Origin: Arcobacter sp. EP1
Lineage (GTDB): Bacteria > Campylobacterota > Campylobacteria > Campylobacterales > Arcobacteraceae
Length of the DNA: 64,000 bases
NCBI GenBank assembly: GCA_001655195.1
Contig: LPNY01000203.1
Span: forward strand, 1 to 64,000
Direction of reading: 5' to 3'
Made by a program: the position numbers and the translations under genes. This document shows, piece by piece, positions 20,576 to 25,242 of this stretch. The notes beneath the pieces were generated by a model. It worked only from the letters and a program-made list of their open reading frames with translations, was not told where the DNA came from and ran no database searches. Positions within the stretch are counted from its first letter, which is position 1, and every line of letters begins with the position of its first letter.

Positions 20576-22396
20576 ATGAGAGACATTAGAAATATTGCCG
20601 TTATCGCGCACGTTGACCACGGTAAAACGACACTAGTAGATGAACTGTTAAAACAATCAGGAACATTTGCATCACATCAAGAAGTTGATGAAAGAGTAAT
20701 GGATAGTAATGATATTGAAAAAGAGAGAGGAATTACAATTCTTTCTAAAAATACTGCTATTGATTACAATGGCGTTAGAATTAACATTATTGACACTCCA
20801 GGCCATGCTGACTTTGGTGGAGAAGTTGAACGAGTTCTTAAGATGGTTGACTCAGTATTATTACTAGTTGACGCTCAAGAAGGTACGATGCCACAAACAA
20901 AATTTGTTGTAAAAAAAGCACTTCAATTAGGTCACCGACCAATCGTTGTTATCAACAAAATTGATAAACCAGGTGGTGATCCAGATAGAGTAGTTGATGA
21001 AGTATTTGACCTGTTTGACCAAATGGGTGCAAATGAAGAACAACTTGAATTTCCAGTGATTTATGCAGCAGCAAGAGATGGTTATGCTATGACTGCTTTA
21101 GAAGATCCAAAAGAGAATTTAACACCTCTATTTGAAACAATTCTTACAGAAGTTCCAAAACCAAAAGGTGATGATGAAAATGGTCTTCAACTGCAAGTAT
21201 TTACACTTGATTACGATAACTTCATTGGAAAAATTGGAATTGCGAGAATCTTTAACGGAACTATCTCTATGGGTGAGACAGTTACATTAGTAAAAGCTGA
21301 TGGTGAAAAAGTTAAAGGTCGAGTTACTAAACTAATTGGATTTAAAGGTGTTGATAGATTTGACATTGATAAAGCTGGTACAGGTGATATTGTTGCCGTT
21401 GCTGGATTTGAAACTATTGATGTAGGTGATTCACTATGTGATCCTGCAAATCCGATGCCATTAGACCCTATGCATATTGAAGAACCAACACTTTCTGTAA
21501 CATTTGCAGTAAATGATTCTCCATTAGCAGGAACTGAAGGTAAATATGTAACTTCTAACAAAATTGATGAGAGATTAGTTGCAGAAATGAACACTAATAT
21601 TGCCATGAACTATGAGCAAATTGGTGAGGGTAAATTTAAAGTTAACGGTCGGGGTGAATTACAAATTTGTATCCTTGCTGAAAACATGAGACGGGAAGGT
21701 TTTGAGTTCTCTATTGGACGACCAGAAGTAATTACAAAAGAAGAAAATGGTGTAACTTTAGAGCCATTTGAGCATTTAGTAATTGATACACCAGATGAGT
21801 TCTCAGGTGCTATTATTGAAAAACTTGGAAAACGAAAAGCAAACATGACAAACATGGTACCAATGGGTTCAGGTTACACAAGACTTGAATTTGAAATCCC
21901 AGCGCGAGGATTAATTGGTATTCGAACTGAGTTCTTAACTGAAACAAAAGGTGAGGGTGTTATGAACCACTCATTCTTAGAATTTAGACCACATTCTGGA
22001 ACAGTTGAATCGCGAAAACATGGAGCATTAGTCTCTATGGAAGCAGGTGAAGCAGTTGGTTATTCTATCTTTAACTTACAAGATAGAGGGATTATGTACA
22101 TTGCACCTCAAGATAAAGTGTACAACGGAATGGTAATTGGACAACACGCTAAATCAAATGACTTAGATGTTAATCCAGTTAAAGCTAAACAACAATCAAA
22201 CGTTAGGTCTTCGGGAGCTGATGAAGCGATTAAATTAGTTCCACCAAAAGTGATGTCTTTAGAGAATGCTTTAGAGTGGATTGAAGAAGATGAGCTTGTT
22301 GAAGTTACTCCAGTATCCGTAAGAGTGAGAAAAAGAGAACTTGATGCAACAGTTCGAAAAAGAGCAGCAAAAAAAGCGAAATTCGCCGATGATTAG
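20576..22396 (+). CDS. typA: Translational GTPase TypA/BipA
   Basis: 606 residues, full length. The G domain shows AHVDHGKTT (P loop), [21 protein letters not shown] and NKIDKP. EF-G-like domains III and V and the TypA-specific C-terminal domain (about 485-606) follow. TypA binds the ribosome and is needed for assembly and growth at low temperature or under stress. It is single, with a long leader before it and a strong terminator after it. Confidence 0.97.
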
Positions 22397-22416
22397 AAAC
22401 TAGTTTTTCTATTTTC

Positions 22417-22455
22417 AAAAGGGGAAGAGCTTTATTGCTCTTCCCCTTTTTTTTT
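22417..22455 (+). terminator. Terminator of typA
   Basis: GGGGAAGAGC, loop TTTATT, GCTCTTCCCC, then nine T's. It is a perfect 10-bp stem and a textbook intrinsic terminator, so the structured region downstream must have its own promoter. Confidence 0.93.
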
Positions 22456-22457
22456 GT

Positions 22458-22577
22458 CTAAAAAATAGTTTCTATTTTTTAGGTACCTTTATTATATGAC
22501 TTCTTTTATCAGTATGGCAAAGCCACACTTAAAGAAGTAAACCCTAAAGAGAGTAACGAGTTACTCTTATTATAGGG
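22458..22577 (+). promoter_or_regulatory. Three consecutive hairpins: promoter region and structured leader ahead of the microprotein genes
   Basis: H1 is CTAAAAAATAG/CTATTTTTTAG (22458-22482, perfect 11 bp). H2 is ACTTCTTT/AAAGAAGT (22499-22538) with an inner TGGC/GCCA. H3 is CCCTA...GAGTAAC-GA-GTTACTC...TAGGG (22542-22577). A -10-like TTATATG lies just before H2, so H2 and H3 would be the first parts of an RNA leading to the 21-codon gene at 22603. I compared it with the cyclic-di-GMP, preQ1, glycine and TPP riboswitch patterns I know and found no match. Confidence 0.5.
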
Positions 22578-22602
22578 ATAAAATTTGGAAAAAAGGAGAT
22601 AT

Positions 22603-22668
22603 ATGAAAGAAGATGTGCCATCCAGGTGGATAAGTTTTAGGAATCAAATAATAAAAACAAAATATTAA
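22603..22668 (+). CDS. 21-residue peptide, possible leader peptide
   Basis: MKEDVPSRWISFRNQIIKTKY, ATG to TAA. The ATG is preceded by AAAAAGGAGATAT, an excellent ribosome binding site with ideal spacing, in a region that otherwise lacks genes. The peptide is basic, with one Trp and three Arg, and has no membrane segment. Its stop codon directly abuts the hairpin that controls the next small gene, so it may work as a leader peptide as well as, or instead of, a functional product. Confidence 0.5.
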   Translation: MKEDVPSRWISFRNQIIKTKY

Positions 22669-22700
22669 TAGGAGAAATTCTTCTCCTATAAAAAGGAGAA
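22669..22700 (+). promoter_or_regulatory. Two-state hairpin over the ribosome binding site of microprotein 1
   Basis: Hairpin one: TAGGAGAA (22669-22676) with TTCTCCTA (22681-22688). Hairpin two: TTCTCCT (22681-22687) with AGGAGAA (22694-22700), which contains the Shine-Dalgarno sequence of the gene at 22705. The two cannot form together. The stop codon of the 21-codon gene ends at 22668, so a ribosome there would cover the 5' arm of hairpin one. Confidence 0.55.
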
Positions 22701-22704
22701 AGAA

Positions 22705-22800
22705 ATGAACAATATTAATACAAACAAAAAAGACTATTTAATTTTAATAGCAATTTATAGTATTACGATTACAACCAGTTTTTTAGCAATTACAAACTAA
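22705..22800 (+). CDS. Single-span membrane microprotein 1 (31 residues)
   Basis: ATG at 22705 after AAAAAGGAGAAAGAA, stop TAA at 22798-22800. The N-terminal dozen residues are polar and end in TNKKDYL, followed by one hydrophobic helix (LILIAIYSITITTSFLAI). It is clearly related to the product of 24801-24908: both have I-x-TNK-x-DYLI, then IY-x-IT and a TxF near the end. Two related tiny proteins with strong ribosome binding sites 2 kb apart argue that they are real. The function is unknown; stress-linked inner-membrane peptides are a reasonable guess from the neighbours (DNA repair, Hsp20). Confidence 0.72.
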   Translation: MNNINTNKKDYLILIAIYSITITTSFLAITN

Positions 22801-22853
22801 AGCAAGATTCGGATTGTTTAGTCTATTTAATTGTAGTATACTAAAGGAAAAAA

Positions 22854-23693
22854 ATGAATGATTTATTAAAAGAACAGTATCGGTATTATGAAACAGTTAA
22901 AAAAGCTTTAGAGTATGTTGATGAAAATTATATGCATCAACCTACTTTAAATGATATAGCAAAACATTCAGGTTTGAGTAGACATCACTTTGCACGTATA
23001 TTTAAAGAGTATGTGGGAGTAACTCCTATGCAGTTTTTACAAGCAACTACATTAGAACATGCTAAAAAACATCTTGAAAACTCTAAATCTATTTTAGAAA
23101 CCTCTTTGGATGTTGGACTATCTAGTTCAAGTAGATTGCATGATTTGTTTATTAATTTTGAGGGCATTACACCCAATGAATATAAAAATATTGGTGAAAG
23201 TATTACTATCACTTATGGGGTTGGTAATAGTCCTTTTGGTAAGACTTTTTTAGCACAAAGTACCCGAGGTATTATGGCATTGATGTTTTATGAAGATAGC
23301 TTTGGGGAACAATTAAATCGTCTTAAAAAAGATTGGAGCAAAGCAAACTTTTTAGAAGACAATGTCTTAACCAATGAAACGTTAAAAGCCATATTTATTG
23401 ATAATAAAAAGCAAAAACTTTTTGTTAAAGGAACCAATTTACAAATTAATGTTTGGCGAGCATTATTAACGATTCCTTATGGGAATCTTACAACTTATAG
23501 TGAAGTGGCACAAAAAATAGGTAATGAAAAAGCTGTTCGAGCAGTCGCTTCAAGTATTGGTAAAAACCCTATCTCTATTTTGATTCCTTGCCATAGAGTT
23601 GTGGGTAAAAGTGCTGCGATGAGTGGTTATGCTTGGGGAGTTGAGCGAAAACGTATTATCTTAGCTTACGAAAGCCAATATCAAAAGAGTTAA
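22854..23693 (+). CDS. AraC-type regulator fused to methylated-DNA-protein-cysteine methyltransferase (Ada-like)
   Basis: 279 residues. Residues 14-112 are an AraC-type DNA-binding domain with two helix-turn-helices (TLNDIAKHSGLSRHHFARIF is the first). Residues about 118-275 are an O6-alkylguanine transferase with the acceptor cysteine C246 in PCHRVVG and the helix motif YGNLTTYSEVA ahead of it. The protein lacks the N-terminal zinc domain of E. coli Ada, which takes methyl groups from phosphotriesters, so its switch for transcription must differ. It should repair O6-methylguanine and probably regulate its own or nearby genes. Confidence 0.9.
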   Translation: MNDLLKEQYRYYETVKKALEYVDENYMHQPTLNDIAKHSGLSRHHFARIFKEYVGVTPMQFLQATTLEHAKKHLENSKSILETSLDVGLSSSSRLHDLFINFEGITPNEYKNIGESITITYGVGNSPFGKTFLAQSTRGIMALMFYEDSFGEQLNRLKKDWSKANFLEDNVLTNETLKAIFIDNKKQKLFVKGTNLQINVWRALLTIPYGNLTTYSEVAQKIGNEKAVRAVASSIGKNPISILIPCHRVVGKSAAMSGYAWGVERKRIILAYESQYQKS

Positions 23694-23761
23694 CTAATAA
23701 TCAATTAATATTCACTACACAAAAAACTACTACAATGCTTGCAATTTAAAGGAGTATTGTA

Positions 23762-24136
23762 ATGAAACGTTTGGTAACCCTAACCCTATTAATGACTATA
23801 AGTTTTAGTTCACTGTTTGCAATGAACTATTATCATGGCGAAGTGATTATCAAAAATAACACTGAACTTGCATGGGACGAAAAAGAGAAAAAGCTTGTCA
23901 GTTTAGAGACCTTTTTTAGAAATTATGCTAAACGAAATGGTGGGCTTACGTGGGGAGAATCAGAAAACTATCCACCCTATGATAAAGTCTATGAGTATGA
24001 TCTGTTTATGGTAAAAATTGGTAACGAGATTTGTCTCATGGAGTTTTATCATGAAAGATGGCGAAGAGCAAATGATGTACGAAGATGGCACGATACTTTT
24101 AATGAATTCTCTGCATGTTCTAAGGTTTTTAACTAA
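23762..24136 (+). CDS. Secreted small protein, unknown function
   Basis: 124 residues with a clear signal peptide (about 1-20, ending SSLFA). The mature part is rich in Trp, Tyr and Arg and has two cysteines (ICLMEF and SACSKVF), possibly one disulfide in the periplasm. I do not recognise a family. The ATG follows AAAGGAGTATTGTA. It may be co-transcribed with the methyltransferase fusion 68 bases upstream. Confidence 0.65.
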   Translation: MKRLVTLTLLMTISFSSLFAMNYYHGEVIIKNNTELAWDEKEKKLVSLETFFRNYAKRNGGLTWGESENYPPYDKVYEYDLFMVKIGNEICLMEFYHERWRRANDVRRWHDTFNEFSACSKVFN

Positions 24137-24138
24137 AA

Positions 24139-24165
24139 ATAGCACTTTAAATTTATAAGTGCTAG
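24139..24165 (+). promoter_or_regulatory. CIRCE-like element 2 (distal)
   Basis: TAGCACTT, nine bases, AAGTGCTA (24140-24164). The spacing matches the CIRCE operator of HrcA exactly; the outermost base pair is lost. It also directly follows the stop codon of the secreted protein gene. Confidence 0.65.
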
Positions 24166-24250
24166 AAATTTTGAAATTTAATTAAAGTACCATATAATGG
24201 CACTTTTAAAGGATATATTTAGCACTTTAAAGCTTCATTTGCTAAATATA

Positions 24251-24277
24251 TTAGCACTTACTATTGACAAGTGCTAA
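24251..24277 (+). promoter_or_regulatory. CIRCE element upstream of hsp20 (HrcA operator)
   Basis: TTAGCACTT, nine bases, AAGTGCTAA. This is the CIRCE consensus TTAGCACTC-N9-GAGTGCTAA with one symmetrical change in each arm. It overlaps the -35 box of the hsp20 promoter, as expected for a repressor site. A degenerate third copy (TTAGCACTT at 24219 with TTGCTAA at 24239) lies just upstream. Confidence 0.85.
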
Positions 24278-24293
24278 AGAATAGTGCTATAAT
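24264..24293 (+). promoter_or_regulatory. Sigma-70 promoter of hsp20
   Basis: TTGACA (24264-24269), an 18-base spacer and TATAAT (24288-24293). Both hexamers are perfect, so the promoter should be strong when HrcA releases the overlapping CIRCE site. Confidence 0.85.
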
Positions 24294-24344
24294 TCCAATA
24301 AGTTGATAAGGAAGTTATCAACAAATAATTAAAAGGAGTTCATT

Positions 24345-24761
24345 ATGTTCTTAACTAAATTTGACCCATTTAAACAAATGAGAGATATTGAAAACTCTCT
24401 TTATACGTATCCAACAGCTAATGAAGGTGTTGGTGGTTTTGTTCCTGTAGTTAATACTCGTGAAGGTGAGTTTGCTTATCACGTTGATGTTGATTTACCA
24501 GGTGTTAAAAAAGAAGACATAAAAGTTGATATTCATAAAGATGTTTTAACCATTTCGGGAGAGAGAAAAACCAAAGAAGAGGTTAAAGAAGAAGATTATT
24601 ATAAAGTTGAAACCTCATTTGGAAAGTTTGCACGAAGTTTTACATTACCTGAAAGCGCTGATGTGGAACATATAGAAGCCAACTGTAGTGACGGTGTTTT
24701 GGAAGTAGTCATTCCAAAACTTGATGAACAAAAAAGTAAAAAAACTATAGAAATTAAGTAA
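24345..24761 (+). CDS. Hsp20 / alpha-crystallin family small heat-shock protein
   Basis: 138 residues. The alpha-crystallin domain (about 36-128) includes YHVDVDLPGVKKEDIKVDI, LTISGERK and the closing FARSFTLPESADVEHIEA...DGVLEVVIPK. The C-terminal I-x-I appears as TIEIK. It is an ATP-independent holdase that forms oligomers and traps unfolding proteins. The CIRCE operator and strong promoter upstream place it under HrcA heat-shock control. An AAAAGGAG ribosome binding site precedes the ATG. Confidence 0.95.
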   Translation: MFLTKFDPFKQMRDIENSLYTYPTANEGVGGFVPVVNTREGEFAYHVDVDLPGVKKEDIKVDIHKDVLTISGERKTKEEVKEEDYYKVETSFGKFARSFTLPESADVEHIEANCSDGVLEVVIPKLDEQKSKKTIEIK

Positions 24762-24800
24762 AGAAGAGATTTCCCCTCTCTTCTTTCAAAAAGGAAGAGA
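24760..24800 (+). promoter_or_regulatory. Two-state hairpin over the ribosome binding site of microprotein 2
   Basis: Hairpin one: AAAGAAGAGA (24760-24769) with TCTCTTCTTT (24777-24786), starting inside the hsp20 stop codon. Hairpin two: TCTCTTC (24777-24783) with GAAGAGA (24794-24800), which contains the Shine-Dalgarno region of the gene at 24801. The pairing scheme is the same as at 22669-22700, with different bases. Confidence 0.55.
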
Positions 24801-24908
24801 ATGAAAACAATTAAAAAAAATATTGAGACCAACAAGACAGATTATTTGATAACCATGACGATTTATGGTATCACAATGTTAGCAACGTTTATTTATATTG
24901 CTCAGTAA
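24801..24908 (+). CDS. Single-span membrane microprotein 2 (35 residues)
   Basis: ATG at 24801 after AAAAAGGAAGAGA, TAA at 24906-24908. A polar N-terminus ending in ETNKTDYLI is followed by one hydrophobic helix (TIYGITMLATFIYIAQ). It is a relative of microprotein 1 at 22705: about half the aligned residues are identical over 28 positions, and the TNK-x-DYLI block is shared. It lies 39 bases after hsp20, with no promoter of its own visible, so it should be made during heat shock unless hairpin one ends transcription. The function is unknown. Confidence 0.72.
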   Translation: MKTIKKNIETNKTDYLITMTIYGITMLATFIYIAQ

Positions 24909-24952
24909 TCCCTAATAAGTTTCCCACCCCAAAAAAGTGAATATTTTATGAC

Positions 24953-24982
24953 AAAAAGAGGCCAATCTCCTTGCCTCTTTTT
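24953..24982. terminator. Bidirectional terminator
   Basis: AAAAAGAGGC and GCCTCTTTTT form a 10-bp stem around CAATCTCCTT. It ends the hsp20/microprotein transcript on one side and the long sulfur-assimilation transcript on the other. Confidence 0.9.
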
Positions 24983-24984
24983 AT

Positions 24985-25242
24985 TTAGTCATTTTTTCTA
25001 TTTTTAAAAATTTTAATCAAAATATAAAGTGCTAGACCAAAAGTAATAGTATTAGCAAAAATCATTGGATAACTGTTTAAGTAAAGTCCATATATCAACC
25101 AACAAAATACGCCTGTTGTAAACATGGAAAAGGTTGCTAGGGATAAATCAGCAGTGTGATTTGTTTTATAAATCTTCATTACTTGTGGTATAAACGCAAC
25201 TGTCGTTAATGTTGCCGCTAAAAATCCTATGATTTCAAACAT
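24985..25242 (-). CDS. SemiSWEET family transporter
   Basis: 85 residues with three membrane helices, the half-size SWEET layout that works as a dimer. The PQ-loop motif FIPQV is in helix 1, and the short triple-helix bundle ends ALYILIKIFKNRKND. SemiSWEETs move sugars down their gradient; here the substrate is unknown. The gene is the last in a long minus-strand cluster, one base after the metallophosphoesterase gene. Confidence 0.88.
   Translation of the reverse strand: MFEIIGFLAATLTTVAFIPQVMKIYKTNHTADLSLATFSMFTTGVFCWLIYGLYLNSYPMIFANTITFGLALYILIKIFKNRKND

Follow-up and report, generated by a model that had tools for sequence, protein, structure and literature searches.

Candidate minimal translation attenuators at the stop codon of the preceding ORF in the leaders of two related microproteins of Arcobacter

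We analyzed a 64,000-nt stretch of the Arcobacter sp. EP1 genome (contig LPNY01000203.1, positions 1 to 64,000; hereafter, the window) and propose that the leaders of two small genes in it, referred to here as A and B, each form a translation attenuator of only three segments, a minimal design in which the start site of the microprotein would be hidden once a ribosome finishes the upstream ORF. We assign this reading a probability of roughly 0.6. The sequences themselves contain two mutually exclusive helices, a stop codon positioned at the first arm, an unconstrained upstream peptide and selection acting on A.

The two microproteins and their leaders

Both small ORFs announced in a preliminary description of this DNA are present, and their products are homologous to each other, as had been claimed (E about 1e-4). 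The relevant features are as follows.

20576..22396, plus strand: typA/bipA, translational GTPase, conserved upstream neighbour of A (TIGR01394, 926 bits)
22417..22455, plus strand: intrinsic terminator between typA and the A leader (14-bp stem, T run)
22603..22668, plus strand: leader ORF (uORF) of A, MKEDVPSRWISFRNQIIKTKY, 21 codons, Shine-Dalgarno (SD) sequence AAAAGGAG, stop codon TAA at 22666-22668
22668..22676, plus strand: R1 of A, antisequestor arm ATAGGAGAA, pairs with Y
22678..22689, plus strand: Y of A, shared pyrimidine arm TTCTTCTCCTAT, partner either R1 or R2
22694..22704, plus strand: R2 of A, SD region AGGAGAAAGAA, sequestered when paired with Y
22705..22800, plus strand: microprotein A, 31 aa, one predicted membrane span
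24251..24277, plus strand: CIRCE-like inverted repeat TTAGCACTT-N9-AAGTGCTAA, overlapping the hsp20 promoter
24264 (TTGACA) and 24288-24293 (TATAAT): hsp20 promoter
24345..24761, plus strand: hsp20, leader ORF of B (PF00011, 90.9 bits), its stop codon overlapping R1 of B
24760..24769, plus strand: R1 of B AAAGAAGAGA, 10-bp hairpin with Y
24777..24786, plus strand: Y of B TCTCTTCTTT
24791..24800, plus strand: R2 of B, SD region AAGGAAGAGA, 10-pair hairpin with Y
24801..24908, plus strand: microprotein B, 35 aa, one predicted membrane span, 17 homologues

In A, the first hairpin pairs 22668-22676 with 22681-22689 (9 bp, loop ATTC) and starts inside the uORF stop codon; in B, it pairs 24760-24769 with 24777-24786 (10 bp) and starts within the hsp20 stop codon (24759-24761). 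The earlier claim that each hairpin begins at the stop codon of the preceding gene is therefore correct for both. The second pairing joins 22678-22687 to 22694-22704 in A (10 pairs, one bulged base) and 24777-24786 to 24791-24800 in B (10 pairs). Thus, the complementarity to the SD region was rightly noted, but its length was given as only seven bases.

A profile of A matched in 38 of 104 genomes of the Arcobacter-type family, and all 38 copies sit downstream of typA. All 17 homologues of B lie directly behind hsp20, so that both genes occupy fixed chromosomal neighbourhoods across genera. A is under purifying selection (dN/dS 0.21), and its hydropathy reaches a maximum of 2.2 over 18 residues. 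A search of A, B and the uORF peptide against Pfam and the NCBIfam small-protein families gave no profile match, and an order-wide search of 399 genomes yielded no convincing A beyond the Arcobacter-type family. The location of the genes does not suggest a type I toxin-antitoxin system of the AapA kind: a mobile or multicopy toxin gene would be expected, whereas A and B are fixed at typA and hsp20. A and B represent an unannotated, conserved family of membrane microproteins linked to genes of translation and protein stress, in a host group where few RNA regulators have been studied.

Conservation and covariation of the helices

To count helices, we used the 38 A loci, which had been picked by the protein alone. 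R1 (AGGAGA), Y (TCTCCT) and R2 (the SD sequence) were found in every one of them, with an R1:Y helix of 8-11 bp and a Y:R2 helix of 7-12 contiguous bp in all 38 genomes. Because the MAFFT alignment placed R2 wrongly in some rows, the pairs of Y:R2 were counted by a script that fixed the arms by their CTCC and GGAG motifs.

The Y core of A hardly varies, and therefore the central pairs yield no covariation. Each helix nevertheless shows compensatory changes at positions that the other does not use, which answers the proposal that covariation of both stems be checked in an alignment and bears out, for A, the two mutually exclusive pairings with the first arm at the stop codon. In the R1:Y helix, an outer pair changed from A-T to G-C in four genomes, at about three separate places on the typA tree. 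Among the pairs exclusive to Y:R2, two-sided changes occurred in about six separate places, and 184 of 190 cells were formed. The exclusive-pair score was matched by none of 10000 permutations. In one genome (G098), all three arms have changed together (GGAGAT/ATCTCC/GGAGAT).

The situation at B is less uniform. Its own Y fits its own R2 better than the R2 of other species, a fit equalled in 5 of 5000 permutations, and the Y:R2 pairing is weak at some loci (G060, G068). The hairpin occurs in 11 of the 17 homologues; in the other six, B starts directly behind the hsp20 stop codon, and these look positively coupled to hsp20. Homologues that keep the protein and lose a pairing had been named in advance as evidence against the switch. 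They exist for B, but none was found among the 38 homologues of A, so that the idea of a shared scheme holds throughout A and for only part of B.

The upstream ORF keeps its end point

An ORF preceded by an SD sequence ends within -6 to +3 nt of R1 in 36 of the 38 A loci, compared with 2.9 expected from shuffles. Its peptide, however, is unconstrained, with a dN/dS of 1.18 against 0.21 for A, and in seven genomes in which another gene follows typA, the uORF peptide is unrelated while the stop position is retained. Given these two results, we found no conserved leader peptide or codons that could serve signal-specific stalling.

Measured from the first base of the stop codon, R1 of A ends at 6-14 nt and Y begins at 12-26 nt. 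The corresponding distances in B are 7-12 nt and 12-18 nt, so that the stop-to-arm geometry is alike in A and B, as the preliminary description had supposed. The arm spacing in A is apparently the edge of a terminating ribosome, and the target of selection is, as judged from these comparisons, the end point of the ribosome rather than the peptide. The synonymous sites of the uORF also change little (pS 0.067 compared with 0.256 in A). This hints at a further constraint at the RNA level.

Proposed mechanism and predicted energies

We propose the following mechanism. When R1:Y is formed, the SD sequence of the microprotein would be free (ON), and when Y:R2 is formed, the hairpin would bury the SD sequence up to the start codon (OFF). 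The upstream ORF, a short uORF for A and hsp20 for B, stops exactly on R1, so a terminating ribosome would cover R1 and leave Y bare; Y would then capture the SD sequence and the microprotein would be switched off. If the upstream ORF is not finished, whether through lack of initiation, a stall further upstream or RNA without a following ribosome, R1:Y would form first during transcription and the microprotein would be made. The uORF peptide itself would be irrelevant to switching. Judged from the sequences, the ORFs are probably translated, the switch would turn in this direction, and it may respond to translation stress.

Among the elements of an attenuator, a uORF with its own SD sequence was found in 36 of 38 A loci, and an SD-sequestering hairpin and a competing helix in all 38; the geometry would also place the leader ribosome over one arm of the competing helix. 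The strong terminator that stands between typA and the A leader counts against an attenuator.

The two alternatives are predicted to be nearly equal in energy at 20 °C, both in A (-13.2 versus -13.5 kcal/mol) and in B (-13.6 kcal/mol versus -13.8 kcal/mol for Y:R2), with a median ON-OFF difference of 0.3-0.8 kcal/mol across A. Covering R1 is predicted to favour OFF by a median of 12.4 kcal/mol in A and 7.7 kcal/mol in B. For 21-27 of the 38 genomes, the energy model favours OFF even in the free A leader, and therefore reaching ON may depend on the order of folding during transcription. In the minimum-energy fold of the window, the uORF stop region pairs at long range with codons 3-5 of A; we rejected this helix as part of the device because many homologues are without that N-terminus of A.

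We also looked for such leaders elsewhere. Among 280 other genes, taken from the window and from 400 kb of a relative, none was preceded by a hairpin of 8 bp or more with a 3' arm binding the SD sequence at -9.5 kcal/mol or below. Across the 104 genomes, the core pattern occurred 41 times (33 times in A leaders), compared with about 25 for a reversed control pattern; the eight exact matches outside A leaders are at background level. A search with an RNA model for further users gave only weak matches beyond the A leaders and one B leader (that of G100). One weak match lies in a nap operon, with 8-bp SD complementarity in one species that is absent from a sister species. An Rfam scan of 22300-25100 returned nothing at gathering score, only sub-threshold chance matches.

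A more general interpretation is that the bistable leader is a peptide-independent 'termination sensor', which would read only the arrival of a ribosome at the stop codon and turn the next gene off, i.e., inverse translational coupling. It would be used with a disposable uORF in A and a complete chaperone gene in B, and a failure to translate the preceding ORF would lead to production of the microproteins. We would give even odds on this. If it is true, the leader would be a general gauge of translation itself, and a natural switch of unusually small size (about 45 nt), with clear negative coupling of neighbouring genes.

Alternative explanations

The alternative that survives best, although we regard it as unlikely, is positive coupling by reinitiation. 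Here, the upstream ORF would bring the ribosome, the SD-like R1 would hold it after termination, and about 40 nt further on translation would restart at A or B; the hairpins would do no more than shorten or meter the path. R1 is indeed always GGAG-like, and the hairpin-less B homologues have a coupling arrangement. Translational coupling is reported to persist up to about +40 nt, where it is 3-10-fold less efficient; the same study found that structure behind the stop codon correlates with poorer coupling (PMC12548453), which argues in the opposite direction. Moreover, reinitiation needs neither the compensatory outer pairs of R1:Y nor the covariation of Y:R2 with bases between the SD sequence and the ATG.

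Slightly less likely again is a trans-acting factor that sets the switch, with the uORF being secondary; this could be CsrA on ANGGA-like sites of R1 and R2, another RNA-binding protein, an sRNA or a ligand. The GGA motifs of R1 and R2, which alternate between paired and unpaired, and the unusually conserved synonymous sites of the uORF would suit such a factor. However, it leaves unexplained why the stop codon is kept at R1 even where the upstream sequence is wholly replaced, and why hsp20 occupies the same place for B.

We consider it improbable that the role of the R1:Y hairpin is confined to ending, protecting or uncoupling the upstream message, with the SD likeness a by-product of purine-rich sequence. 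Hairpins right behind stop codons are found in other places too, such as a nap-operon gap of one genus, mostly without SD complementarity, and this reading could accommodate the weak B loci; yet Y:R2 reaches through the R1:Y loop and covaries there, and none of the 280 control genes showed such complementarity.

Finally, although the operon of hsp20 and B has a CIRCE-like operator, the suggestion that heat melts the switch, as in an RNA thermometer (ROSE, FourU), is very improbable and was discarded: in free A leaders, the mean exposure predicted for the SD sequence moves little from 15 to 45 °C (0.13 to 0.24) and is 0.03-0.04 with R1 blocked, no Rfam match lies above threshold, and a thermometer requires neither R1 nor a positioned stop codon.

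Comparison with known systems

The preliminary description knew of no family with this layout, but the attenuator proposed here would be a compact form of leader-ORF translation attenuation, which has precedents. Leader-peptide attenuators of the trp type are classical, and the erm and cat translation attenuators are inducible. They share with the A and B leaders the overlapping helices and a repressive hairpin that results when a ribosome completing the leader covers one arm. The A and B leaders differ in having no diagnostic codons, no stall peptide and no terminator with a U run behind Y, in comprising only three segments within about 45 nt, and in their target, a membrane microprotein. Attenuators of the trp type have also been predicted in Actinobacteria (PMC1262725).

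In E. coli toiL-topAI (PMC12121999), a uORF likewise precedes a translationally repressed gene with a structure that hides the ribosome-binding site, and the position of the ribosome in the uORF decides the outcome. There, however, the repressive hairpin includes the uORF and is opened by sequence-specific stalling, whereas the A and B leaders have a separate antisequestor arm on the stop codon and, in A, an unconstrained uORF sequence; the prediction is that the site closes once the uORF is finished. In Salmonella speF (PMC6386406), the progress of the ribosome on orf34 selects the mRNA structure, the SD sequence is sequestered and the position of the orf34 stop codon matters. That system involves conserved arginine codons, Rho and RNase G, and translation of orf34 promotes expression; regulatory codons are not evident in the A and B leaders. 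Rhodobacter CutF-CutO (PMC9973294) is also similar: there, a stem-loop covers the ribosome-binding site of the second gene and is controlled by a ribosome close to the end of the first. CutF, however, stalls via a nascent-chain motif and opens the stem, while the A and B leaders have no conserved peptide motif and a predicted effect of opposite sign. The AapA toxin mRNAs of H. pylori (PMC6733600) likewise encode a small protein of the Campylobacterota behind metastable SD-sequestering hairpins, but they belong to a type I toxin with an antisense RNA, whereas for A and B the genes are fixed at typA and hsp20 and the uORF would be part of the device. Known leader-ORF attenuators read a specific codon run, a peptide or a drug, whereas the device proposed here keeps the stopping point and discards the peptide.

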